Source of the DNA: Nitrospirota bacterium
GTDB lineage: Bacteria > Nitrospirota > Thermodesulfovibrionia > Thermodesulfovibrionales > Dissulfurispiraceae
Assembly: GCA_021792185.1 (NCBI GenBank)
Contig: JAJYVD010000015.1
Location: 1 to 51,622, forward strand
Direction of reading: 5' to 3'
DNA length: 51,622 nucleotides
Each line of letters starts with the position of its first letter. Position 1 is the stretch's first letter. Made by a program: the position numbers and the translations under genes. Shown piece by piece: positions 5,960-51,480 of the stretch. The notes beneath the pieces are model-generated. The model saw only the letters and a program-made list of their open reading frames with translations. It was not told the origin of the DNA and did no database searches.

Positions 5960-6913
5960 TTAAGCTTTATAAACTCTTGCAAGACCTTCTGAAAACTTAT
6001 CTACATAGCCATACCCCCTTGGTTGTATAATTATTTTGCCGCTCTTATCTATTAATCCGAATTTGCCGTTAATCTCAACGGTTGCTAATCCTTCTGAAAA
6101 ACAATATGCAGAATCAAATTGCGGCATAATTGTTATTCTGCCGATTCTATCTATATATCCCCATTTCCCATAAATCATTACTGCCGCTAAATTCTCGGAA
6201 TATAGGTCTACAGCTTCAAAGACGGTATCTATTACGATTTTACCGGTCTTATCAATGAATCCCCAGGCCGTGCCATTGTGTACAGCCGCCACCCCCTCGT
6301 AAAACCTCTCACCATCAGAATACTGAGCATCAGACATCTTAGCACCGCTTTTATCGATGTAGCTTATTTTGCCGCTGCATTCAACTGCAGCTATTCCCTC
6401 CGCAAACCAGGCCATCATACCGAATTTAGGAGGAATTATAATTTCCCCTGCTTTGTCAATAAAGCCCCATTTGCCGCCAATTTGTACGCTCGCAAGCTCT
6501 TCAGAGAAAGTAACCGCGTCATCAAACTGTGCTTCTATAACTAAGTCCCCCTTCTTGTTTATAAAACCAATTTTGCCGTTTAAATATATGCTTGCTAATC
6601 CTTCTGAAAAACAATTGCCATAAAAAAATCCGGAAGAGGCTTTGATGATAAACCTTCCCTGCTTATCGATAAATCCGCCAATATCCCCAACAGTAACATG
6701 CGCTAATCCTTCCGAGAAATCATCTGCATAATCAAATTGCGGTTCGATTACAAAGCAGGCGGATTTATCTATAAATCCCCATTTCCCGTGCATGCAAACC
6801 CTTGCCAATCCTTCAAGGAAGGGACCAGCCGATTCGTATTTTATAGGAATAATCACTTTCCCTGACCTGTCTATATAGCCGCTATAGCCGCTGATTGAGT
6901 TTGTAGTAAGCAT
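5960..6913 (-). CDS. WG-repeat protein
   Basis: This is a protein of about 317 aa built almost entirely from WG repeats: nine or so units of roughly 30 residues with the pattern WGFIDKxGxxVIxPxFDxAxxFSEGLAxV. Such repeats form beta-rich scaffolds and occur in many bacteria without an agreed function. The reading frame is open up to 6973, but ATG at 6913 is the better start: it has a GGAGGG ribosome site 8 bases upstream, whereas the start at 6973 has none. The protein lacks a signal peptide with either start and is probably cytoplasmic. It is followed 22 bases later by the small lipoprotein gene. Confidence 0.88.
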   Translation of the reverse strand: MLTTNSISGYSGYIDRSGKVIIPIKYESAGPFLEGLARVCMHGKWGFIDKSACFVIEPQFDYADDFSEGLAHVTVGDIGGFIDKQGRFIIKASSGFFYGNCFSEGLASIYLNGKIGFINKKGDLVIEAQFDDAVTFSEELASVQIGGKWGFIDKAGEIIIPPKFGMMAWFAEGIAAVECSGKISYIDKSGAKMSDAQYSDGERFYEGVAAVHNGTAWGFIDKTGKIVIDTVFEAVDLYSENLAAVMIYGKWGYIDRIGRITIMPQFDSAYCFSEGLATVEINGKFGLIDKSGKIIIQPRGYGYVDKFSEGLARVYKA

Positions 6914-7040
6914 TATGCTGACCCTCCATGTTTTATTAGATACAATCTTAATATATGTTGCTGACAGCGCCATGTCAGCATTGAAAGTATTTCTTAATTG
7001 GTTAGTAAAAGTGATTTTTTTATTCAGGAACGATTTGTTT

Positions 7041-7229
7041 TTAGGCTGTTTTAGTGCCGGTTTTCTTTTTCTCGAATTTTAAACACTCTATGCCCGAGGA
7101 TTGATGGACGACCATCGAAGGCATGTTCTTTGTCTTGAATTTCATGGCCTTACAGCTATACGGAAAGTCTTTCTCCCATGTAATGTAAAAATACCTGCAT
7201 TTAAAGCAATCGATTTTCGAAATTTTCAT
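7041..7229 (-). CDS. Small conserved four-cysteine protein
   Basis: This 62-aa protein has Cys8-x2-Cys11, Cys26 and Cys49 in the pattern CFKCRYFYITWEKDFPYSC...GIECLKFE. It matches a small family common in Gram-negative bacteria that is often labelled uracil-DNA glycosylase in databases, although it is far too short for that enzyme and has none of its motifs. The four cysteines suggest a zinc or Fe-S knuckle. A conserved KxxxMPSxVV-type stretch (32-41) fits the family. Its role is unknown. It is a single gene downstream of the structured element at 7251-7438. Confidence 0.7.
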   Translation of the reverse strand: MKISKIDCFKCRYFYITWEKDFPYSCKAMKFKTKNMPSMVVHQSSGIECLKFEKKKTGTKTA

Positions 7230-7250
7230 TCTCGTTAATATCCTATTTTA

Positions 7251-7438
7251 CCGATGGAAGGCAAAGCATTTCCGCTTCATTCTCGAATGGCATCCCGCCA
7301 TTCTCCGAAGCTACGACAGCCCGCTTAGACATCCGTGTCACGCTTGGGCTGTCGAAGTCGCTCCAATACCTTACCTTCCATCGGCCGAATATATGAAGGC
7401 ATGGGCGGATAAAAGGCTTTACCATCGCCACATTCGGC
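7251..7438. other. Structured element with nested stems (candidate ncRNA or mobile palindromic repeat)
   Basis: This fills most of a 328-base stretch (7230-7557) without a convincing gene. An outer 11-bp perfect stem pairs CCGATGGAAGG (7251-7261) with CCTTCCATCGG (7374-7384). Inside it are two hairpins: GAATGGC (7285-7291) with GCCATTC (7297-7303), and CGACAGCCC (7314-7322) with GGGCTGTCG (7346-7354), the latter capped by GACA/TGTC. A further stem, GCCGAAT (7384-7390) with ATTCGGC (7432-7438), follows directly. An 80-codon minus-strand frame covers the area but has no family resemblance and is constrained by the palindromes. It could be a structured RNA processed from the upstream signalling operon, a REP/MITE-like element, or both. 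Confidence 0.5.
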
Positions 7439-7557
7439 AAGCAATTAACTCTCAAATAAAGCAATAAATTTTTGAAGATGAACATACTATTATAGGCTAT
7501 TTATAAATAACGCGATTTGTAAAGACTTTTAGCTGCTTATGCCTTCGTTAATCGATG

Positions 7558-8952
7558 TCAATCCCCCGTGCCCTTTGTAATATTATATTTCTTCAAAAGG
7601 GCGTGGAAATTCGTCCTCTGCATCCCGACCTCCGCAGCAGCCTTCGTAATATTCCACTCGTTGCGCTTTAGCGCCGCTGTCAGAAAATTCTTTTCTATTT
7701 CCTCTATGGATTTGTTTCTTAGATCCTTTTTTTTCTTTTTCAGTTCTTCGATCGTCGCCGGGATATCCACCTCCTCTTCCAGAGGCGTTATTATATGCTC
7801 CGGCTTCAGCGTCCTGCCTTCGCAGACTATGACCGCCCGGTGAATCACATTCTCAAGCTCTCTCACATTGCCGGGCCAGTCGTGGGCTATCACCTGGCGC
7901 ATAGCCTCTGCCGAGATATGCGGGACATCCCTGCCTGTTTCCTTGCCGTATTTGTGAAGGAAATGATAAGCAAGCGCTGGGATGTCTTCTTTTCTGTCCC
8001 TGAGAGGAGGTACGGTGATGGGGAAGACGTTCAACCTGTAAAAAAAATCCTCCCTGAATGCGCCTTTTTTTACCATCTCGGACAAATCCCTGTTTGTTGC
8101 CGCAATAAACCGGATGTCGATTTTAACCGTTTTTCTGCTGCCTACAGGCCTGAATTCCTTCTCCTGCAATACCCTCAGGAGCTTTGCCTGCATGGGCAGT
8201 GGAAGGTTGCTTATTTCGTCGAGAAAAACAGTTCCTCCGTTGGCTGTTTCGAGCATGCCCTTTTCGGTTGAAACCGCGCCGGTGAACGCGCCTTTTGCAT
8301 GGCCGAAGAGTTCGGATTCCATAAGATTTTCGGGTATTGTGCCGCAGTCGACCACTATAAAAGGCTGTTCCCTCCGGGCGCTGTTGTAATGTATGCCCCG
8401 TGCCACAAGTTCCTTTCCGGTGCCGCTTTCGCCTGTTATCAGCACAGTGCTTCCCGTTGACGCAACCGTTGCCATAAGCTTGAATACCTTCTGCATTTCC
8501 TTTGAGGCGCCTATGATATTATCGAGGCTGTAAAGGGCGTGTATCTCCTGTTTGAGCCTTATGTTTTCCGTTAAAAGCCTTTTCTTCTCAAGACATCTCC
8601 CGACCGCATTCACCAGCGCATCCGGGGTAAAGGGCTTCTCTATATAGTCGTACGCGCCGTATTTCAGGGCGTCTACCGCTGTCTTGACCGTGCCGTAGCC
8701 TGTAATGATTATCACCTCTGTTTCAGGCCACTCCTCTTTTATCTTTTTTAGCAGATCGATCCCGGTTACATCCGGCATGACAAGGTCCGTGAGCACGAGA
8801 TCAAATGTTTTATTATTGAGCTTTTTTAACGCATCGCCCGCGTTTTTAGCGGTTTCGAGGGTGTAGCCTTCGGGAGAAAGGATTCTTACGCAGCTCTTCC
8901 TTACAATATCTTCATCGTCAACTATAAGTATTGCGGGATTGATCGAAGTCAT
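7558..8952 (-). CDS. Sigma-54-dependent NtrC-family response regulator
   Basis: This 464-aa regulator has three domains. The receiver (about 6-120) has phospho-acceptor Asp56 in DLVLTDLVMP. The sigma-54 AAA+ domain (about 145-375) has Walker A GESGTGKE (174-181), the GAFTGA loop (221-226) that contacts sigma-54, and Walker B TVFLDE (241-246). A Fis-type helix-turn-helix (about 418-460) ends the protein (NITKAAAEVGMQRTNFHALLKKYNI). It should activate sigma-54 promoters when phosphorylated, presumably by the histidine kinase at 11410-12540. It is the last gene of the minus-strand signalling operon, 2 bases after the CheY-like gene. Targets are not visible here. Confidence 0.95.
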   Translation of the reverse strand: MTSINPAILIVDDEDIVRKSCVRILSPEGYTLETAKNAGDALKKLNNKTFDLVLTDLVMPDVTGIDLLKKIKEEWPETEVIIITGYGTVKTAVDALKYGAYDYIEKPFTPDALVNAVGRCLEKKRLLTENIRLKQEIHALYSLDNIIGASKEMQKVFKLMATVASTGSTVLITGESGTGKELVARGIHYNSARREQPFIVVDCGTIPENLMESELFGHAKGAFTGAVSTEKGMLETANGGTVFLDEISNLPLPMQAKLLRVLQEKEFRPVGSRKTVKIDIRFIAATNRDLSEMVKKGAFREDFFYRLNVFPITVPPLRDRKEDIPALAYHFLHKYGKETGRDVPHISAEAMRQVIAHDWPGNVRELENVIHRAVIVCEGRTLKPEHIITPLEEEVDIPATIEELKKKKKDLRNKSIEEIEKNFLTAALKRNEWNITKAAAEVGMQRTNFHALLKKYNITKGTGD

Positions 8953-14211: not shown

Positions 14212-15194
14212 GCCTCATAAAAGATAAATACGAGCGCGTTATCGATTACATGCGCATATCCATAACCGACAGGTGCAACCTCCGCTGCGTATATTGCATG
14301 CCAGCGGACGGCATAAAGCCGGTTGATTTCAGAAATATCCTGTCCTACGAAGAAATAGTAAGAATCGTAAAAACAGGCGTAAAGCTCGGAGTAAGAAAGG
14401 TGCGCATTACAGGAGGCGAGCCGCTTATAAGAAAAAACCTCCCGTATCTTATTAAGGAAATAAATAACATTGACGGCATCGAGGATATAAGCATAACTAC
14501 AAACGGGCTTCTGCTGAAACAATATGTGCGGCAGCTTGTGGACGCGGGGCTTAAGAGGGTGAATATAAGCCTCGATTCCCTCCGTCCGGAGCGATATTCC
14601 GAAATAACGAGAGGCGGCGACATTAAAAAGGTGTTCGAGGGGATTCAGGAGGCGGAAGCCGTCGGGTTGACGCCGATAAAAATAAATATGGTTCCCATAA
14701 GGGGCTTTAACGACGACGAGATAGAGGAATTCGCGAAGATAACGATGAAAACAGCTTACCATATACGTTTCATAGAATTTATGCCTATAGGGTCGCGGGA
14801 GATATGGAGCCGCGAAAAATATATCTCATCCGAAGAACTCCGGCAGAGGGTTTCTGAAGTTGCTCCCCTTATGCCTTTAAAAATAAGGCGTTCAGGGCCT
14901 GCCCGTTATTACGGGTTTGAAAACGCGCCGGGATGCATCGGATTTATCAGCCCTATAACCCATCATTTCTGCAATACATGCAACAGGCTCAGGCTTACAT
15001 CCGACGGCAAGCTCCGCCCGTGTCTTTTTTCCGAAACCGAGATTGATCTAAAATCCGCGCTGAGAAACGGGGCATCCGATGAAGAGGTTGAGCGTCTTTT
15101 GAGGCTTGCCGTAGAGATAAAGCCTGAAGGCCATTCCATAAACCATGAAAAGTCTTTTGATCACCTGAAACCCATGTCAAAAATAGGGGGATGA
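14208..15194 (+). CDS. moaA: GTP 3',8-cyclase MoaA (molybdenum cofactor synthesis)
   Basis: This 328-aa radical-SAM enzyme converts GTP to 3',8-cyclo-dihydro-GTP, the first step of molybdopterin synthesis. The N-terminal cluster is Cys23-x3-Cys27-x2-Cys30 (DRCNLRCVYC), with GGEPL for SAM binding and the (alpha/beta)6 core. The C-terminal cluster is CNTCNRLRLTSDGKLRPC. The protein ends in GG, the dipeptide that enters the active site in this family. Its start overlaps the cpoB stop by 4 bases. No other moa genes are in the window, so it is an isolated member riding on the pal-cpoB transcript. Confidence 0.96.
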   Translation: MSLIKDKYERVIDYMRISITDRCNLRCVYCMPADGIKPVDFRNILSYEEIVRIVKTGVKLGVRKVRITGGEPLIRKNLPYLIKEINNIDGIEDISITTNGLLLKQYVRQLVDAGLKRVNISLDSLRPERYSEITRGGDIKKVFEGIQEAEAVGLTPIKINMVPIRGFNDDEIEEFAKITMKTAYHIRFIEFMPIGSREIWSREKYISSEELRQRVSEVAPLMPLKIRRSGPARYYGFENAPGCIGFISPITHHFCNTCNRLRLTSDGKLRPCLFSETEIDLKSALRNGASDEEVERLLRLAVEIKPEGHSINHEKSFDHLKPMSKIGG

Positions 15195-15197
15195 CCT

Positions 15198-15233
15198 GAA
15201 AATTTCAAATCTCAAATTTGAAATTTCAAATTC
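15198..15233. repeat. AAATTTC heptad repeat (copy 1), fills the moaA/GT2 spacer
   Basis: Four to five imperfect units of the 7-base motif AAATTTC/GAAATTT span essentially the whole gap between the moaA stop (15194) and the next ATG (15234). No ribosome site remains visible. Confidence 0.75.
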
Positions 15234-16007
15234 ATGATACCTGTCTCTGTCGTCATAATCACAAAGGATGAAGAAATAAACATAGGCGACGCCCTTGAAA
15301 GCGTAAAGGACTTCGAAGATGTTGTTGTGGTCGATTCCTTCAGCAAAGACAGGACAATAGAGATAAGCAGGCAATATACGAGCAGGGTATTTCAGCACGA
15401 GTGGCAGGGTTATGCGGCGCAGAAACAAGAGGCGGTAGATTATGCGCAAAGGCAATGGGTTTTGATACTCGACGCGGATGAGAGAGTCAGTCCCGAGCTG
15501 AAAAAAGAGATTTTAGAAAAAATTACTCTAAACTCTGAACTCTTAACTCAGAACTCATGTCGCGGTTTTTATATCCCAAGGAGAAATTTCTTTTTGGGCA
15601 GATGGATAAAGCACAGCGGATGGTGGCCTGATTATACTCTGAGGCTTTTCAAAAAGGATGTATCGCATTTGGAGCCGAGAGCGGTACACGAAAAAGTGGT
15701 CGTCAACGGCTCTACAGATTATCTGAAATGCCCGCTGGAGCATTACACCTATAGAACAATTTCTGATTATATTAAAAAGATGGAAAATTACTCGACCCTT
15801 GCGGCAGAGGAAATACTCCTTAAAAATCCCGCTCAATCCCCGGTCTCGTTACTTGCTAAAATGGCGTTAGGCCCGGTCTTCACGTTTTTTAAAATGTTTT
15901 TCATAAAACAGGGATTCAGGGACGGAATTCACGGTTTTATGCTGGCCGCGCTTTATGGATTCTACACATTCCTAAAGTATGCAAAGGCGTGGGAGAAAAA
16001 GGGTTGA
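15234..16007 (+). CDS. GT2-family glycosyltransferase (WaaE/KdtX-like)
   Basis: This 257-aa cytoplasmic inverting glycosyltransferase opens with PVSVVIITKDEEINIGDALES, typical of the GT-A fold. Its acidic motifs are VVVDSFSKD (36-44) and LDADERV (78-84). The C-terminal half, with WWPDYTLRLFKK, AVHEKVVVNG and the amphipathic PVFTFFKMFFIKQGFRDG, resembles lipid A/inner-core glucosyltransferases of the WaaE group that act at the membrane. The start codon is directly preceded by an AAATTTC repeat instead of a ribosome site. An in-frame AACTC-type micro-repeat encodes LNSELLTQNS at about 98-109. It opens the glycan cluster. Confidence 0.85.
   Translation: MIPVSVVIITKDEEINIGDALESVKDFEDVVVVDSFSKDRTIEISRQYTSRVFQHEWQGYAAQKQEAVDYAQRQWVLILDADERVSPELKKEILEKITLNSELLTQNSCRGFYIPRRNFFLGRWIKHSGWWPDYTLRLFKKDVSHLEPRAVHEKVVVNGSTDYLKCPLEHYTYRTISDYIKKMENYSTLAAEEILLKNPAQSPVSLLAKMALGPVFTFFKMFFIKQGFRDGIHGFMLAALYGFYTFLKYAKAWEKKG
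15525..15558. repeat. AACTC micro-repeat (copy 1, in GT2)
   Basis: Repeated units of the type AACTCTGAACTC/TTAACTCAGAACTC are read in frame as LNSELLTQNS, inserted between two conserved blocks of the glycosyltransferase. Related copies lie in the following GT4 gene and in folC. Confidence 0.6.
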
Positions 16008-17128: not shown

Positions 17129-18270
17129 ATTTTGTAAATATAAAAAAAATACTTGTCATAAAGCTGAGGTATATCGGCGATGTCCTTCTTGCAGTCCCCG
17201 TATTCAGGGCATTGAAAGAAACATTTCCGGACGCACACATATCGGCGCTTGTAAATTCAGGAACGGAAGATGCATTGCGCGGCAACCCGATGATAGACGA
17301 GATAATAAGCTTTGACAGGAACATAAAAAATCTTCCATTGCTAAAGCGATATTTCAGCGAAATAGGCTTTCTGGGACATTTCATAACAAAAGGTTTTAAT
17401 ATGGCTGTTGACCTGACAGGGGGAGACAGGGCAGCGGTCATATCCATTGCGTCCGGAGCAAAATACAGGCTTGGCTGGAAATCTAAAAAGGGCTTTATAG
17501 GGAAAAGATATGCCTATACCCATCTGTCGGAGCCGGACGGAAATAGACATACGGTATTGCAGAACATGGAGGTAATAAGCAGGTTCGGGATAGATACAAA
17601 AGACCTTTCAATCGATTTTCATATCCCGGAAGAGGACAGGGTGTTTATCGGAAACATCCTCAAAGGCCGTAACATAAAAGATGGCGATACCGTCGTTCAT
17701 GTGCATCCAACCTCGCGATGGCTCTTTAAGTGCTGGGAAGACGAGTATATGGCAGAAATTATAACATGGCTTTTGGGACAGGGCATAAAGGTAATAGTCA
17801 CATCATCGCCTGATAAAAAAGAAATGGAAAAGGCAAAGAGGATTTTATCTTTAGTCGGGGACAGTCCCGATTCACGGTTAATAGACCTTTGCGGAAAGAC
17901 CACGATAAAACAGCTCGGCGCTGTATCCGGGGCCTCAGACCTTTTCTTCGGCGTAGACTCGGCGCCGATGCATATTGCAGCCGCTGTCAGCACCCCTGTT
18001 ATTGCCCTATTCGGACCGAGCGGCACCTTCAATTGGGGGCCGTGGGATAATAAAATTTCAAATTTCAAATTTCAAATTTCAAATTCTATGAATCCCTATC
18101 AAAAAAGAAACGGCATTCAGGCATTCGGGATGCATACTGTAATGCAGAGAGACTGGGAGTGCATACCGTGTGGAAAGGACGGGTGCAAAGGCACTAAAAT
18201 AAGCAGATGTCTTACCGATATAAGCCCGGAAGAGGTAAAGAATATCATAGTTGAAAAATTAAAGATATGA
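17125..18270 (+). CDS. GT9-family heptosyltransferase-like glycosyltransferase
   Basis: This 381-aa GT-B enzyme of the ADP-heptose:LPS heptosyltransferase family opens with KKILVIKLRYIGDVLLAVPVFRAL. It has the GGDRAAVIS/RLGWKS acceptor region and the C-terminal donor site FFGVDSAPMHIAAAVSTPVIALFGPSG (family signature DSxxxHIAAA). The tail CIPCGKDGCKGTKISRCL has cysteines typical of this branch. An AAATTTC heptad repeat is inserted in frame at about residue 309-321 (KISNFKFQISNS), in the loop after GPWDN where the family normally varies. It overlaps neighbours by 4 bases on both sides. It likely transfers heptose to the inner core. Confidence 0.9.
   Translation: MNFVNIKKILVIKLRYIGDVLLAVPVFRALKETFPDAHISALVNSGTEDALRGNPMIDEIISFDRNIKNLPLLKRYFSEIGFLGHFITKGFNMAVDLTGGDRAAVISIASGAKYRLGWKSKKGFIGKRYAYTHLSEPDGNRHTVLQNMEVISRFGIDTKDLSIDFHIPEEDRVFIGNILKGRNIKDGDTVVHVHPTSRWLFKCWEDEYMAEIITWLLGQGIKVIVTSSPDKKEMEKAKRILSLVGDSPDSRLIDLCGKTTIKQLGAVSGASDLFFGVDSAPMHIAAAVSTPVIALFGPSGTFNWGPWDNKISNFKFQISNSMNPYQKRNGIQAFGMHTVMQRDWECIPCGKDGCKGTKISRCLTDISPEEVKNIIVEKLKI
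18052..18086. repeat. AAATTTC heptad repeat (copy 2, in frame in GT9)
   Basis: Five near-perfect tandem 7-mers (AAATTTC) lie inside the GT9 coding sequence. Thirty-five bases of 7-mers keep the frame because units and flanks together add a multiple of three. It encodes KISNFKFQISNS. Confidence 0.8.
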
Positions 18271-36298: not shown

Positions 36299-37084
36299 GT
36301 GAATGGAATGAACAGGATAGATAATACATTCAAAAGACTTAAGGCCGAAAACAAAAAGGCATTCATACCGTATATCATGGCAGGGGATCCGGACCTCGAA
36401 AAGACTAAAGAACACATTATGACGCTGGAGGAGTGCGGGGCTGATATTATAGAACTCGGCGTGCCTTTTTCAGATCCGCTTGCGGACGGTCCCACGATAC
36501 AAAGGGCGGCGGAAAGGGCATTGAAGGCAGGCGTTACATTAAAAAAGATAATCCCCTTTGTTAAGAGGATAAGGAGTCATACGCAGGCGCCTATTGTTTT
36601 GATGACTTATTATAATTCCGTGTTCAAATATGGAGAAGCGTCCTTCATCAAAGATGCCGTTGATGCAGGTATTGACGGGGCAATAATTCCGGACCTGCCT
36701 CCGGAGGAGGCGGAAAGTTTTATTGAATTGTCGCGGGCTGCTGATTTCAGCACGGTATTTTTAGTCGCGCCGACATCGACAAAAGAGAGGATAAAAAAGG
36801 TCGTAGACGCATGCAGCGGCTTCCTATATTATGTGTCGATAACAGGAATTACGGGCGCAAGGCTATCCCTGGATGAAAGATTTAAAAGGCATATCTCCCT
36901 GGTAAAAAAGTCGGCGGATATGCCGGTGGCCGTCGGCTTCGGCGTATCAACGCCTGAAGACGCCGGAATGATTACTCGGCTTGCAGACGGAGTTATCGTC
37001 GGGAGCGCGATAGTCAAGAAATTTTACGAGCATCCGGCGGGCGCAAAGGAATTTATAAGAAAATTACGGGAGGCAATAAGATAA
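36299..37084 (+). CDS. trpA: Tryptophan synthase alpha chain
   Basis: This 261-aa TIM-barrel partner of TrpB cleaves indole-3-glycerol phosphate. It has IPYIMAGDP, catalytic Glu52 and Asp63 in IIELGVPFSDPLADGPTIQRA, MTYYNSVFKYG, DGAIIPDLPPEEAE, YYVSITGITG, and the phosphate-binding GFGVSTPEDA plus VIVGSAIVK. It starts at GTG 36299 with AGGAG about 11 bases upstream; ATG three codons later is a weaker option. It is followed, after an AAATTTC repeat that fills the spacer, by accD. Confidence 0.96.
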   Translation: MNGMNRIDNTFKRLKAENKKAFIPYIMAGDPDLEKTKEHIMTLEECGADIIELGVPFSDPLADGPTIQRAAERALKAGVTLKKIIPFVKRIRSHTQAPIVLMTYYNSVFKYGEASFIKDAVDAGIDGAIIPDLPPEEAESFIELSRAADFSTVFLVAPTSTKERIKKVVDACSGFLYYVSITGITGARLSLDERFKRHISLVKKSADMPVAVGFGVSTPEDAGMITRLADGVIVGSAIVKKFYEHPAGAKEFIRKLREAIR

Positions 37085-37116
37085 TTTGAAATTTCAAATT
37101 TCAAATTTCAAAATTT
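37084..37116. repeat. AAATTTC heptad repeat (copy 3), fills the trpA/accD spacer
   Basis: About four units of AAATTTC/GAAATTT run from the trpA stop to the base before the accD ATG. As at 15198-15233, the repeat occupies the whole region where a ribosome site should lie. Confidence 0.78.
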
Positions 37117-37968
37117 ATGGCATGGTTTAAAAAGACAAGGGAAGTAAAAACAGAGAAAAGGGTAAAGATCCCCGAAGGGTTGTGGGTAAAATGCGACAAC
37201 TGCAAGGAGATCATTTACAAAAAAGAGATAGAAAAAAACCTCCAGGTATGCCCGAAGTGTAATTATCACTTCAGGATCAGCGCTGCGGAGCGCATCAACT
37301 TCATAGCTGATGAGGATAGTTTTATGGAGACCGCCGCGGAGCTTTCCACAACCGATCCCCTGAACTTCGAAGACACTATGCCGTACAGTGAAAGGCTTAA
37401 AGAGAATAAAAAGAGAACGGGGATCTCGGAGGCCGCAATATACGGAGACGCGACAATAAATGAGCGGCCTGTTGTACTTGCGATAATGGATTTTTCATTC
37501 ATGGGCGGCAGCATGGGCTCAGCGGTGGGAGAGAAAATAACGTGCGCGGCCGAGAGGGCATTGGAGGACAAAACTCCGTTAATAATAGTTTCGTCATCAG
37601 GCGGAGCGCGTATGCAGGAGGGGATGTTTTCGCTCATGCAGATGGCAAAGGCTTCTTCAGCCATAGCAAAATTGAAAGAGGCGGGCATTCTGTATATCGC
37701 GGTGCTTGCTGACCCCACATTCGGGGGAGTTACGGCAAGCTTTGCCATGCTCGGCGACATAATCATAGCGGAGCCTAAAAGCCTCATAGGTTTCGCGGGG
37801 CCGAGGGTTATCGAGCAGACCATAAAACAACAACTGCCTGAAAATTTTCAGCGGGCTGAGTTCCTTTTAGATCACGGGATGATAGACATTGTTGTCGAAA
37901 GGAAGGAATTGAAAAATACCGTTTATAAACTGATCCAGCATTTTATGCCGTTATCACAGGAGTCATGA
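37117..37968 (+). CDS. accD: Acetyl-CoA carboxylase carboxyltransferase beta subunit
   Basis: This 283-aa subunit transfers the carboxyl from biotin to acetyl-CoA in fatty-acid synthesis. The N-terminal zinc ribbon has Cys26-x2-Cys29 and Cys45-x2-Cys48 (CDNC...CPKC). The crotonase-type core has FMGGSMGSAVGEKI, SSSGGARMQEG and ADPTFGGVTASFAMLGDI, which form the CoA and biotin sites. The accA partner is not in the window. No ribosome site is visible since the upstream spacer is an AAATTTC repeat; translation may depend on coupling to trpA. The order trpB-trpA-accD-folC is common in bacteria. Confidence 0.96.
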   Translation: MAWFKKTREVKTEKRVKIPEGLWVKCDNCKEIIYKKEIEKNLQVCPKCNYHFRISAAERINFIADEDSFMETAAELSTTDPLNFEDTMPYSERLKENKKRTGISEAAIYGDATINERPVVLAIMDFSFMGGSMGSAVGEKITCAAERALEDKTPLIIVSSSGGARMQEGMFSLMQMAKASSAIAKLKEAGILYIAVLADPTFGGVTASFAMLGDIIIAEPKSLIGFAGPRVIEQTIKQQLPENFQRAEFLLDHGMIDIVVERKELKNTVYKLIQHFMPLSQES

Positions 37969-39404
37969 GCTATACCGACGCGATAGATTATCTCTACGGC
38001 CTTCAGAAATACGGGATCAAACTCGGCCTCGATAAGACGCGTACGATCCTCTCGCGCTTAGGAAATCCCCATAAGGACTTTTCATCCATACATATCGCGG
38101 GTACAAACGGAAAAGGCTCGGTCTCCGCTATGACCGCGTCCATTCTTACGTCTCACTGTTTTAAGGTCGGCCTCTTCACATCTCCGCATCTCGTCAGCTT
38201 TACCGAAAGGATAAGGATAAACAATGAGCAGATATTGGAATCCGAAGTGGTCAGGCTTACCGATGAGATAAGGGAAAAGTTGGAAGGCAGCGATATAATT
38301 CCTACATTTTTTGAATTCGTAACCGCGATGGCATTCTTATATTTTTCAAGGAACGGCATCGATTGGGCCGTCATAGAGACAGGCATGGGAGGCAGGCTTG
38401 ATGCGACCAATGTTATAACGCCCGAAGTCTCGGTCATTGCGCGGATAAGTTACGACCATAAAGACTTCCTTGGCGAAACGCTGAAGGATATCGCAAAAGA
38501 AAAGGCGGGCATTATAAAAAAGGGAATTCCTGTGGTATCGGCTTTTCAGCAGAAAGAGGCGGAAGATGTATTGGAGACAACGGCAAAAGACCAATCGGCT
38601 CCGTTCTTTGTATACGGAAAGGATTTTAAGGGTGTTTTAATATCATCCGATTTGGATGGTATTATTTTCGACTATATCGATTCCGAACCACAAACCCCGA
38701 ACTCCGAACTGACAAACTTATTTGTTCCCCTGGCCGGGGAGCACCAGCTTTTTAATGCGTGCATAGCAATAAAGGCGGCAACCCTCGCAATCCAGAAAGC
38801 AGCAGAGCAACAGAGCAGCAGAGCAGTAGAAAAAAACTTCCATAGTGTAACTTCTGTGCTTTCACGCTTCCGCGCTTCTGCTCTAAAAGACGGTCTTGCC
38901 GGCACAGAGTGGCGTGGAAGGCTGGAGATAGTGAACGACGACCCGATGATCATGATCGATGGAGCGCATAATCCGGATGCCGCGGCAGCGCTTTCCGATT
39001 TCATAAAGAAACATCTGAGTGATTATAAGATTATACTCATAATGGGCGTAATGTCGGATAAAGATATAACAGGCATTCTTTCCCCTCTCTTGCCGCTCGC
39101 TTCCGGGATAATATTTACCGCCCCCAACTACGGAAGAGCGGCATCCCCTCAGGAGCTTGCGGAACGTGCTTCAAAGATGGGATATGATTCGGCAATCGCA
39201 GATTCTGTGAAAGAGGCTATTGAGACGGCAATAAATAGAGCGGAAGAGCAGAAGAGCGGAAGATCAGAAGGAAAAACTTCCGAGCTTCCGAGCTTCCGAG
39301 CTTCCATGCTTATTCTCATCACCGGTTCTTTTTATACGATAGGCGAAGCTATGGAAATGCTTGGAGAAAAGCCTATCCTCGCCGGCTTGAGGGAAACGGT
39401 ATGA
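37965..39404 (+). CDS. folC: Folylpolyglutamate synthase/dihydrofolate synthase
   Basis: This 479-aa Mur-ligase-like enzyme adds glutamate to dihydropteroate or folate. It has the P-loop GTNGKGS (46-52), TSPHLVSFTERIRIN, ETGMGGRLDATNVI and SYDHKDFLGETL (metal and ATP sites), GEHQLFNA, WRGRLEIV and MIDGAHNPDAA in the C-terminal domain. It is longer than usual because three short repeats sit in frame: an AACTC type (38682-38716, EPQTPNSELTN) and two GCGGAAG types (38798-38884 and 39237-39310). All lie in loops between conserved blocks. It overlaps accD and lptD by 4 bases. Confidence 0.94.
   Translation: MSYTDAIDYLYGLQKYGIKLGLDKTRTILSRLGNPHKDFSSIHIAGTNGKGSVSAMTASILTSHCFKVGLFTSPHLVSFTERIRINNEQILESEVVRLTDEIREKLEGSDIIPTFFEFVTAMAFLYFSRNGIDWAVIETGMGGRLDATNVITPEVSVIARISYDHKDFLGETLKDIAKEKAGIIKKGIPVVSAFQQKEAEDVLETTAKDQSAPFFVYGKDFKGVLISSDLDGIIFDYIDSEPQTPNSELTNLFVPLAGEHQLFNACIAIKAATLAIQKAAEQQSSRAVEKNFHSVTSVLSRFRASALKDGLAGTEWRGRLEIVNDDPMIMIDGAHNPDAAAALSDFIKKHLSDYKIILIMGVMSDKDITGILSPLLPLASGIIFTAPNYGRAASPQELAERASKMGYDSAIADSVKEAIETAINRAEEQKSGRSEGKTSELPSFRASMLILITGSFYTIGEAMEMLGEKPILAGLRETV
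38682..38716. repeat. AACTC micro-repeat (copy 3, in folC)
   Basis: The units CCGAACCACAAACCCCGAACTCCGAAC are read as EPQTPNSEL. It lies between the FolC N-terminal domain and the conserved GEHQ motif, in the same family as the copies in the GT2 and GT4 genes. Confidence 0.55.
38798..38884. repeat. GCGGAAG/AGCAG-type repeat (copy 2, in folC)
   Basis: A 5' arm of AGCAG units (AGCAGCAGAGCAACAGAG) and a 3' arm rich in CTTCCGCGCTTCTGCTCT can pair as a hairpin. It is in frame, encoding low-complexity EQQSSRAVEK and SRFRASALK between conserved FolC blocks. Confidence 0.65.
39237..39310. repeat. GCGGAAG/CTTCCG repeat (copy 3, in folC)
   Basis: GAGCGGAAGAGCAGAAG units are followed by three tandem CGAGCTTC units, giving a long imperfect hairpin in DNA or RNA. 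It is read in frame as RAEEQKSGRSEGKTSELPSF, just before the C-terminal strand of FolC. Confidence 0.72.
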
Positions 39405-41575: not shown

Positions 41576-42510
41576 TGAACATAGTCATAAGCCTTAACAA
41601 GGATTACGGTATTACCTCTCACGATGCCGTTACCGCCGTAAAAAACCTGCTTAAAGTGAGAAAGGCAGGCCATGCCGGAACCCTCGATCCCATCGCTACC
41701 GGTTTGCTTTTAGTATGCACCAATGAGGCGACAAAGATTTCACCATTTCTTTCCGGCCTCGACAAAGAATACATCGTGACGATGAAACTCGGAGAAAGCA
41801 CGGATACGTACGATTCGGAGGGTAAGGTGACCAAAAAATTTGAAATTTCAAATTTGAAATTCAAAATAGAAGACGTTAAAAAGATAATTCAAAGATTTAC
41901 CGGCGAAATCGAACAGATACCGCCGATGTATTCGGCAATAAAGGTTTCCGGCAAACCTCTTTACAAATTAGCAAGGGCGGGCGTGGAGGTAGAGAGAAAG
42001 CCCAGAAAGGTAACGATCAACGATATAGAAATAGCCGCATTCGAGCCGCCGTTTCTGACAATAAAGGTTTCGTGCTCAAAAGGGACATATATGCGCTCGC
42101 TGTGCAACGATATCGGAGAGGTGCTCGGCGCAGGCGCGCATATGACAGGGCTTATAAGAACGAGGATAGGAAATTTTACTATCGAAAATTCGGCAAAAAT
42201 AAACGAACTTCCCGGCAAAGCCTCGGCCATGTTCTCCATGGACGACGCGTTGAATCATCTGCCGGAAATAAAATTAGAGGGTGATGACCTAAAAAGGGCT
42301 AAGAATGGGAATCCTGTGAAAATAGAGCAGAAGAGCGGAAGTGCGGAAGAGCAGAAGTGCGGAAGAGCAGAAGCTAAAGACTTCCAGACTTCCGAGCTTC
42401 CTGACTTACGAACTTGTTTTATCAGACTCAAAGATCCTGACGGAAGGCTTTTGGGAATTGGAAAAGTTGCAAGGGATTTGATTAAGATAGAACGGCTTAT
42501 AAAGATTTAA
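41575..42510 (+). CDS. truB: tRNA pseudouridine-55 synthase TruB
   Basis: This 311-aa enzyme makes pseudouridine 55 in the T-loop of tRNAs. It has the catalytic Asp38 in GHAGTLDPIATGLL, EYIVTMKLGESTDTYDSEG, QIPPMYSAIKVSGKPLYKLAR and CSKGTYMRSL. Its C-terminal PUA-like domain ends with GRLLGIGKVARDLIKIERLI. Two repeats are in frame: an AAATTTC type at 41836-41867 (KKFEISNLKFKIED), in the loop before the VKKIIQRFTGEI helix, and a GCGGAAG type at 42323-42416, inside the C-terminal domain. Start ATG overlaps the lptD stop. Confidence 0.95.
   Translation: MNIVISLNKDYGITSHDAVTAVKNLLKVRKAGHAGTLDPIATGLLLVCTNEATKISPFLSGLDKEYIVTMKLGESTDTYDSEGKVTKKFEISNLKFKIEDVKKIIQRFTGEIEQIPPMYSAIKVSGKPLYKLARAGVEVERKPRKVTINDIEIAAFEPPFLTIKVSCSKGTYMRSLCNDIGEVLGAGAHMTGLIRTRIGNFTIENSAKINELPGKASAMFSMDDALNHLPEIKLEGDDLKRAKNGNPVKIEQKSGSAEEQKCGRAEAKDFQTSELPDLRTCFIRLKDPDGRLLGIGKVARDLIKIERLIKI
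41836..41867. repeat. AAATTTC heptad repeat (copy 4, in frame in truB)
   Basis: Four alternating GAAATTT/CAAATTT units are read as KFEISNLKFKI. They sit in a surface loop of TruB; the same peptide type appears in the GT9 gene (NFKFQISN). Confidence 0.78.
42323..42416. repeat. GCGGAAG/CTTCCG repeat (copy 4, in truB)
   Basis: Three units of GAGCAGAAGWGCGGAAG are followed by GACTTCCAGACTTCCGAG. It encodes EQKSGSAEEQKCGRAEAK and DFQTSELPDL within the PUA-like domain, keeping frame. Confidence 0.72.
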
Positions 42511-51253: not shown

Positions 51254-51480
51254 CCTCCGCCCCAAAATCCGCCAACTACTATGAGAGCGGAAGTCGGGAG
51301 GTGATGAAGTGCGGAAGAACAGAAATTAAAGAGAAAGGTAGAGGATCCATCTATAGACTCTTGTACTTCCGGTCTTCCGCGCTTAGAACTAACGGCCTCC
51401 GCGCGACAAAGGCATTCTAAAATTCATAGGGCAAGGGAAGTATCAATTCAAATAAATAGGGGAGATGCGGATTCAGGCAG
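51254..51480 (+). repeat. dpnI 3'-end repeat, copy 3, split by another repeat
   Basis: CCTCCGCCCCAAAATCCGCC (51254-51273) matches the start of the repeat; 51400-51480 matches its second half and flank nearly exactly (ATAGGGGAGATGCGG, then a sequence close to the copy 1 flank). Between them lies a GCGGAAG-type element (51281-51388). The 369-base stretch after vapC (51254-51622) has no gene, only these repeats and the terminal hairpins. Confidence 0.8.
51281..51388. repeat. GCGGAAG/CTTCCG repeat (copy 5), inserted in the dpnI repeat
   Basis: The 5' arm has AGAGCGGAAGTCGGGAGG and GTGCGGAAGAACAGAAA; the 3' arm has TACTTCCGGTCTTCCGCGC. Here the element clearly interrupts an otherwise continuous dpnI-3' copy, showing it as an insertion. 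Confidence 0.72.

Follow-up and report, generated by a model that had tools for sequence, protein, structure and literature searches.

An ancient mobile structured repeat of the Thermodesulfovibrionales with CsrA-type hairpin loops in most csrA-bearing lineages

Introduction

The intergenic element at positions 7244-7390 (minus strand) of the window, by which we mean the whole 51,622-nucleotide stretch of DNA analysed here, belongs to an ancient mobile structured repeat in which CsrA-type hairpins occur in most of the csrA-bearing lineages. The element forms a dispersed family across an order of Nitrospirota, the Thermodesulfovibrionales. It is repeated, its fold is conserved and strand specific, its hairpins carry GGA loops which are absent from most csrA-less lineages, and its copies have moved in both orientations. 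The host of the window copy is a groundwater bacterium with a genome of 2.65 Mb. The interpretation that we favour, with moderate confidence and judging from sequence comparisons, is that the window holds one copy of a mobile, dispersed family of structured RNA modules that bind CsrA.

Structure of the Window Copy

Direct reading of the sequence reveals a perfect outer stem of 11 bp (CCGATGGAAGG at 7251-7261 and CCTTCCATCGG at 7374-7384), a 7-bp hairpin (7285-7291/7297-7303), a 9-bp hairpin (7314-7322/7346-7354) and, beyond the outer stem, a further 7-bp stem (7384-7390/7432-7438). The initial annotation had described these as an order of nested, perfect stems unlikely to arise by chance, and this description was borne out: all of the stems are present, and the fold of 7231-7458 exceeds chance on both strands, the minus strand more so. 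RNAfold yielded -72.5 kcal/mol for the plus strand (z -4.3; 1 of 200 shuffles as low) and -92.8 kcal/mol for the minus strand (z -5.4; 0 of 200 as low). The proposed four-stem plan stands for the outer stem and the two hairpins and fails for the fourth stem, which other copies lack and inside which lies a piece of another dispersed repeat; it was therefore rejected as part of the element.

The functional strand of the window element is the minus strand, on which the outer stem reaches 20 pairs (7365-7384 with 7251-7270), all three non-Watson-Crick pairs being G-U. From 5' to 3' this strand carries the stem arm 7384-7365, a junction, hairpin H1 with loop ACGGAU, the motif CUUCGGAG, hairpin H2 with loop GGGAU, the motif GAGAAUGA and the stem arm 7270-7251. 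The GGA loops did not figure in the earlier description of the hairpins. The features are as follows, with covariance model R1 described in the next section.

7244-7390, minus: whole element, window copy (R1, 147 positions, 163.9 bits; this copy was in the R1 training set)
7365-7384, minus: basal stem, RNA 5' arm, 20 nt, pairing with 7251-7270 by 17 Watson-Crick and 3 G-U pairs (covariation, helix 1)
7251-7270, minus: basal stem, RNA 3' arm, pairing with 7365-7384; the arm sequences vary among copies, complementarity being kept
7314-7354, minus: hairpin H1, 9-bp stem and inner helix with CsrA-type hexaloop ACGGAU (sequence, fold, covariation in helices 2-4, loop count)
7331-7336, minus: H1 terminal loop ACGGAU (sequence, loop class count)
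7303-7310, minus: junction motif CUUCGGAG preceding H2, retained, as CCUCGGAG, in csrA-less lineages as well
7285-7303, minus: hairpin H2, 7-bp stem with loop GGGAU (sequence, fold, covariation in helix 7, loop count)
7292-7296, minus: H2 terminal loop GGGAU, containing GGA (sequence, loop count)
7277-7284, minus: junction motif GAGAAUGA following H2, almost invariant across all lineages
7384-7438, no strand assigned: fourth stem region, outside the element, on a fragment of a second dispersed repeat (GGCATGGGCNGATAAAAGNCTTTAC)
7558-8952, minus: upstream neighbour, sigma-54-activating response regulator gene; the element lies in sense, 168 bases past the gene end
7041-7229, minus: downstream neighbour, a 62-aa ORF without family match

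The window copy is an ordinary family member of subfamily A (defined below), lying in sense behind the sigma-54-type response regulator gene. Neither a promoter nor a terminator was found at the copy, the promoter scan having covered sigma-70-like sites. An independent model built from GGA-free copies, R2 (see below), recovered the window copy too (48.7 bits, E 2.6e-9).

The second dispersed repeat, a fragment of which lies at 7384-7438, was also seen at L012, L020, L056, L208, L243 and L255, and occupies seven distinct places among the loci examined; its core is GGCATGGGCNGATAAAAGNCTTTACCTCGCCAC, and in several copies it begins a short frame (MEAWADKRLYLATLL...). Elsewhere, the window encodes a protein built of seven WG_beta_rep repeats (5960-6973, minus), and carries arrays of AAATTTCAAATTTGAAATTT-like palindromic repeats at four places (15194-15237, 18047-18090, 37076-37119 and 41830-41873) and arrays with a period of eight bases (AGAGCGGA / CTTCCGAG) that lie near one another and run in opposite senses (38788-38844, 39229-39322, 42316-42426 and 51284-51332).

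Copy Number, Distribution and Subfamilies

A DNA search with a 221-base query gave 40 scored matches among 104 candidates in the own genome, and matches in 15 of 60 relatives. For alignment A1, a loose pattern yielded 70 matches, some of them false and inside genes; 19 were left out by inspection (9 false or doubtful and 10 on named contigs) and three copies were added by coordinates, giving 54 copies on which the covariance model R1 was trained. The later copy counts rest on R1, which detected 98 copies in the 2.65-Mb own genome, the window copy included, as well as many in relatives, so that the further copies which the annotation had suggested looking for do exist. The element occurs in 20 of the 31 genomes of the own family. 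Across the order, where the filters were tighter and no more than 17 places were scored in any one genome, 88 of 176 genomes carry it.

No match to the element was found in Rfam, either at the gathering score or up to E 5, or with models of tRNA and tmRNA. The phage and plasmid collections contained no DNA similar to the element, and carriage by a phage or plasmid was rejected on this ground. A literature search, with subscription journals mostly outside its coverage, produced no description of such a repeat.

Three subfamilies were distinguished in the own genome. Subfamily A carries GGA in both loops. Subfamily B has an H1 loop GUGAU, without GGA, and an H2 of the form ACANGGAUGU. For subfamily C (L168, L170, L173, L174, L177, L205 and L207-L212) H1 is replaced by a single 60-nt hairpin of the GGTTAAGG type that is near-identical in about 13 copies and occurs on very different basal stems, as if a module had been copied from locus to locus. 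The GGA loop of H1 is lost in both B and C.

Covariation and Strand Specificity

The element is structured and one strand is the relevant one. In A1, 91.0% of cells are paired versus 79.5% in shuffles, and covariation reaches 0.346 versus 0.131. The compensatory changes that the annotation had proposed as a check are abundant, with 30 of 46 pairs showing double changes and 280 double-change cells against 81 in shuffled alignments. Thus neither of the two outcomes that the annotation had named as refuting its reading, a lack of further copies and a lack of compensatory substitutions, was observed. None of 500 shuffles reached the observed values for pairing, double changes or covariation, and in slid controls pairing dropped to 37-50%.

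Wobbles in the basal stem were counted in 96 of the 98 own copies (the partial copy L213 and L154 were not counted), with a scoring that treats G-U and A-C equally. There were 153 G-U versus 46 A-C, or 109 versus 43 when the first three pairs are left out, the latter corresponding to a binomial p of 8.5e-8 if copies are independent. This preference for G-U, on the strand of the element that is minus in the window copy, indicates that one strand is the folded one; it also disfavours template repair of palindromes and fits an RNA or single-strand DNA substrate.

Orthologous copies provide moderate support, and they were set aside as proof of compensation; the argument is carried by the covariation among paralogues in A1. 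Twelve orthologous stem pairs showed 129 unchanged, 10 compensatory, 12 one-sided, 10 broken and 7 unpaired positions. Pairing of arms with their own partners (369/420) barely exceeded that of hybrid arms (351/420), totals that include three mis-anchored pairs (L165, L102 and L109).

GGA Loops

Loops were counted after folding 196 copies, comprising all 98 from the own genome, 39 from the sister-species genomes G001 and G002 and 59 others. GGA is present in the H2 loop of 182 and in the H1-half loop of 136, and on the opposite strand GGA loops occur in 0 of the 196. At least one GGA loop is carried by 93 of the 98 own copies, by all 39 copies taken from G001 and G002, by 31 of 32 from other family genomes and by 23 of the 27 examined in G012, which has 28 copies. 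Two or more are present in 55 of the 98 own copies and 33 of the 39 from G001 and G002, and the spacing between GGA loops is 28-66 nt with a median of 39 (133 copies).

The main H1 form is ANGGAU, with AUGGAU in 71 copies, ACGGAU in 23, AGGGAU in 7 and AAGGAU in 6. The high-affinity Csr/Rsm site of Duss et al. 2014 (PMC4005645) is a hexaloop, ANGGAX, that sits directly on a stem. Read as sequence, the H1 loop ANGGAU on its stem is this published high-affinity CsrA/RsmE consensus. In most csrA-bearing lineages the hairpin loops show GGA as ANGGAX or NGGAU, the stem below being closed by C-G. In degree of conservation, GGA is equalled by junction motifs that have no relation to CsrA.

Association of the Loops with csrA

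The own genome carries a canonical csrA (L267 3932-4156, minus; TIGR00202, above cut-off) followed by fliW, and csrA (PF02599) was sought in 60 relatives. A GGA loop was found in 21 of 29 copies from eight csrA-bearing genomes versus 1 of 30 from six without detected csrA (p 1.5e-8), in a sample consisting of the listed R1 matches and, within the own family, some of the best copies. The csrA-bearing genomes contributed 6/6 (G003), 2/2 (G006), 1/1 each (G017, G018 and G038), 1/4 (G041), 4/4 (G046) and 5/10 (G048, where GGA forms a bare triloop), and the six element-bearing genomes without detected csrA are G031, G043, G054, G040, G052 and G053. Outside the own family (f1) the ratio is 11/19 versus 1/30 (p 2.5e-5) and, counted by genome, GGA loops occur in 4/4 csrA-bearing versus 1/6 csrA-less genomes (p 0.048). 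R1 was trained on GGA copies and it favours such copies in every genome alike. Few lineages are involved, three csrA-less families versus five with csrA, and common ancestry can therefore explain part of the link.

The copies from csrA-less genomes retain the framework. In an analysis of 24 of the 30 the basal stem covaries strongly, with 114 double-change cells versus 30 and 0 of 500 shuffles reaching the observed value, and the H2 loops share no common sequence. Model R2, built from 24 of the 30, recovers the copies of the own genome down to E 5e-16 and gave no new copies in 335 kb of own sequence. By this test the GGA-free copies are true homologues of the element, and the occurrence of a GGA-free framework in csrA-less lineages implies that its spread and upkeep are independent of CsrA. 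In family f7, GGA occurs in both loops of 11 of 11 copies from six genomes, on wholly different hairpin stems, and csrA is present in three of three f7 genomes examined, all of them other than the six that gave loop data. GGA loops also occur in G153 (family f13) and G118 (f11), which belong to families whose examined genomes lack them.

Within the own family csrA is present in 18 of 20 element-bearing versus 3 of 11 element-free genomes (p 0.0007). Outside it, presence of the element is independent of csrA (4 of 11 csrA-bearing versus 6 of 18 csrA-less genomes; p 1), as would suit a framework whose spread needs no CsrA, but the association at the family level may then reflect ancestry. In G012 no csrA was found even at E<=10, nor was one found in G013. 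Copies without a GGA loop make up 4 of 27 in G012 versus 6 of 169 elsewhere in the family (p 0.03); a recent loss of csrA, or an incomplete bin, is possible for G012.

One copy (L267 3272-3418, minus) is co-oriented with csrA-fliW, following this pair and preceding the next gene; the flanking genes are presumably flgL before csrA and a greA-like gene after the copy. This arrangement is not conserved around 22 further csrA genes (18 loci of 1.6-4.2 kb and 4 loci of 2-3.2 kb), among which the sole match was in G017, about 3 kb from csrA. A conserved feedback site beside csrA was accordingly discarded.

Mobility and Exchange of Cores

The copies sit intergenically. At 70 sites where both neighbouring genes are co-directional, as judged by a simple gene caller, 32 copies are sense and 38 antisense. 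At the L088 site the whole insert, including both stem arms, is missing in G001 and G002, leaving a clean empty site, without a clear target-site duplication in this comparison; no parent element was found. Since the arms are absent from the empty sites, the stem belongs to the element, and an origin of the variable stems by insertion into pre-existing palindromes was rejected for L088. The "empty" sites for L159 in G001 and L081 in G002 are deletion remnants that retain the stem arms, so that not every gap is an insertion.

Comparison of the own copies with the 39 from G001 and G002 showed, with flanks matching on both sides, 14 own sites shared with like orientation and 7 with opposite orientation (L152/L256, L161/L242, L006/L257, L139/L246, L165/L264, L098/L235 and L146/L248). 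For the latter, inversion between the stem arms and repeated insertion are alternatives. The random orientation and the inverted orthologous copies make strict cis control of neighbouring genes unlikely. Some orthologous sites carry cores of differing subfamilies (L174, L165 and L161, and L163 by one flank), which indicates that cores have been exchanged between loci, probably through gene conversion.

Alternative Explanations

The occurrence in both orientations and the empty sites at some loci in relatives make the element MITE-like as well. Of the two possibilities raised by the annotation, a structured RNA and a palindromic mobile element, both appear right: a strand-specific, RNA-like structure is joined to the dispersal, empty sites and dual orientation of a mobile palindrome. 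An alternative that we regard as unlikely is that the element is a plain MITE or REP-like palindrome, with stems serving a transposase or arising by the processing of single-strand DNA hairpins and with GGA acting in DNA recognition rather than in RNA. Recognition of one strand would likewise yield a G-T/A-C asymmetry; the intergenic dispersal in both orientations and the clean empty site of L088 in G001 and G002 are as expected, with remnants and inversions elsewhere. REPs carry a conserved 5' GTAG/GGAG tetranucleotide beside the hairpin, and GGAG precedes H2 in most copies, a motif that also fits the junction. The own genome encodes four Y1_Tnp genes. However, none of them is flanked by copies on both sides (the nearest copy is at about 1.6 kb), and Y1_Tnp does not track the element, being present in 14 of 20 element-bearing versus 6 of 11 element-free family genomes (p 0.45) and absent from G002 with its 34 copies. 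For lack of such co-occurrence RAYT/Y1_Tnp was rejected as the mover of the element. Moreover, a plain palindrome gives no reason for csrA-less lineages to keep the framework and yet lack GGA loops.

Rather improbable, in our judgement, is a structured RNA with some other partner, in which the basal stem would be an RNase III or mRNA-stability signal, the loops would bind another protein or each other, and the csrA link would be due to ancestry. The basal stem does covary strongly in csrA-bearing and csrA-less lineages alike, the junction motifs GAGAAUGA and CUCGGAG are kept everywhere, and G012 retains its loops without detected csrA. Against this, the loops closely match the measured Csr/Rsm consensus, including its free N and X positions, GGA recurs on the unrelated hairpin stems of f7, and random orientation to genes ill suits a cis-acting mRNA-stability signal.

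Finally, it is very improbable that the repeats have no selected function, being palindromes that arose by chance, whose pairing is maintained by quasi-palindrome template switching and whose cores are made alike by gene conversion. Cores have been swapped between loci, those of subfamily C lying on stems of both the A and the B type, and orthologous sites differ in core type. However, template switching predicts perfect pairs without the observed one-strand preference for G-U over A-C, and it would lead one to expect neither the GGA loops nor the lack of them in lineages without csrA.

Proposed Mode of Action

In the CsrA-binding RNA module that we favour, a basal stem of variable sequence bears the conserved junction and the two hairpins, whose loops present GGA in the CsrA/RsmE-bound form in most csrA-bearing lineages. 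With a median spacing of 39 nt, both GGA loops could be held by a single CsrA dimer. Sense transcription may occur by read-through from the upstream gene, in the window the regulator gene at 7558-8952, and the transcribed copy would then bind CsrA. Jointly, some 100 copies would act as a distributed, CsrB-like decoy, and each copy might also bring CsrA to the transcript that bears it. Transcription of the element, its binding of CsrA and its decoy or tethering role are predicted from sequence patterns. Several findings speak against this reading. G012 keeps GGA loops although no csrA was found in it, whereas most copies in G041 and half of those in G048 lack such loops in the presence of csrA. 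Orientation to genes is random, and no promoter was recognised at the window copy. Subfamilies B and C have lost GGA from H1, the copy beside csrA-fliW is not conserved, the element outside the own family occurs independently of csrA, and unrelated junction motifs are no less conserved than GGA.

A broader proposal, which we put forward tentatively and hold to be possible rather than probable, is that an ancient mobile framework gained GGA hairpins where CsrA was present, keeps or loses them with csrA, and serves as a genome-wide CsrA decoy, the CsrA capacity of the cell then being set by the number of scattered chromosomal repeats and not by a dedicated sRNA gene. Such a mobile decoy is suggested by the CsrA-type loops together with the fact that relatives without detected csrA mostly carry the element without those loops. 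If correct, this would give a post-transcriptional network another kind of architecture, with CsrA sites supplied about 100 times per genome, and would link a mobile element to a global regulator. The order itself is a natural experiment, in which one framework can be compared between csrA-bearing and csrA-less genomes, in forms that have GGA loops and forms that lack them.

Comparison with Known Systems

REP/BIME sequences with RAYT transposases, MITEs and ERIC share with the element the form of short dispersed intergenic palindromes in both orientations with empty sites. Unlike them, the element has a covarying basal stem that differs between copies and strand-specific wobbles, its GGA loops are linked to csrA, and it shows no link to Y1_Tnp.

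The known CsrA decoy RNAs are products of dedicated genes, found mainly in Gammaproteobacteria, and CsrB has more GGA sites per RNA than the copies of the element. According to a 2014 study (PMC4333381), the decoys CsrB/CsrC and RsmX/Y/Z come from a single gene or a few genes, every one of which carries many GGA loops; the study calls its own two predictions potentially the first CsrA decoys outside the Gammaproteobacteria, and proposes TwoAYGGAY as a CsrA-binding RNA by the motif logic applied here. TwoAYGGAY RNA (RF01731) resembles the element in its two hairpins, whose loops are of the AYGGAY kind, and differs in that the element gives no match to this Rfam model up to E 5. Its hosts, as listed in a portion of PMC2864571, are the human gut, gamma-Proteobacteria and Clostridiales, unlike those of the element, and in the available portions of PMC4333381 and PMC2864571 it is not portrayed as a dispersed repeat, which the element is. 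From CsrB/CsrC and RsmX/Y/Z the element differs in its one or two GGA loops per copy, its approximately 100 dispersed copies and its lack of a visible promoter and of an Rfam match, and it resembles them in carrying GGA hairpin loops on one RNA strand, in the high-affinity ANGGAX form, in a genome that encodes csrA.
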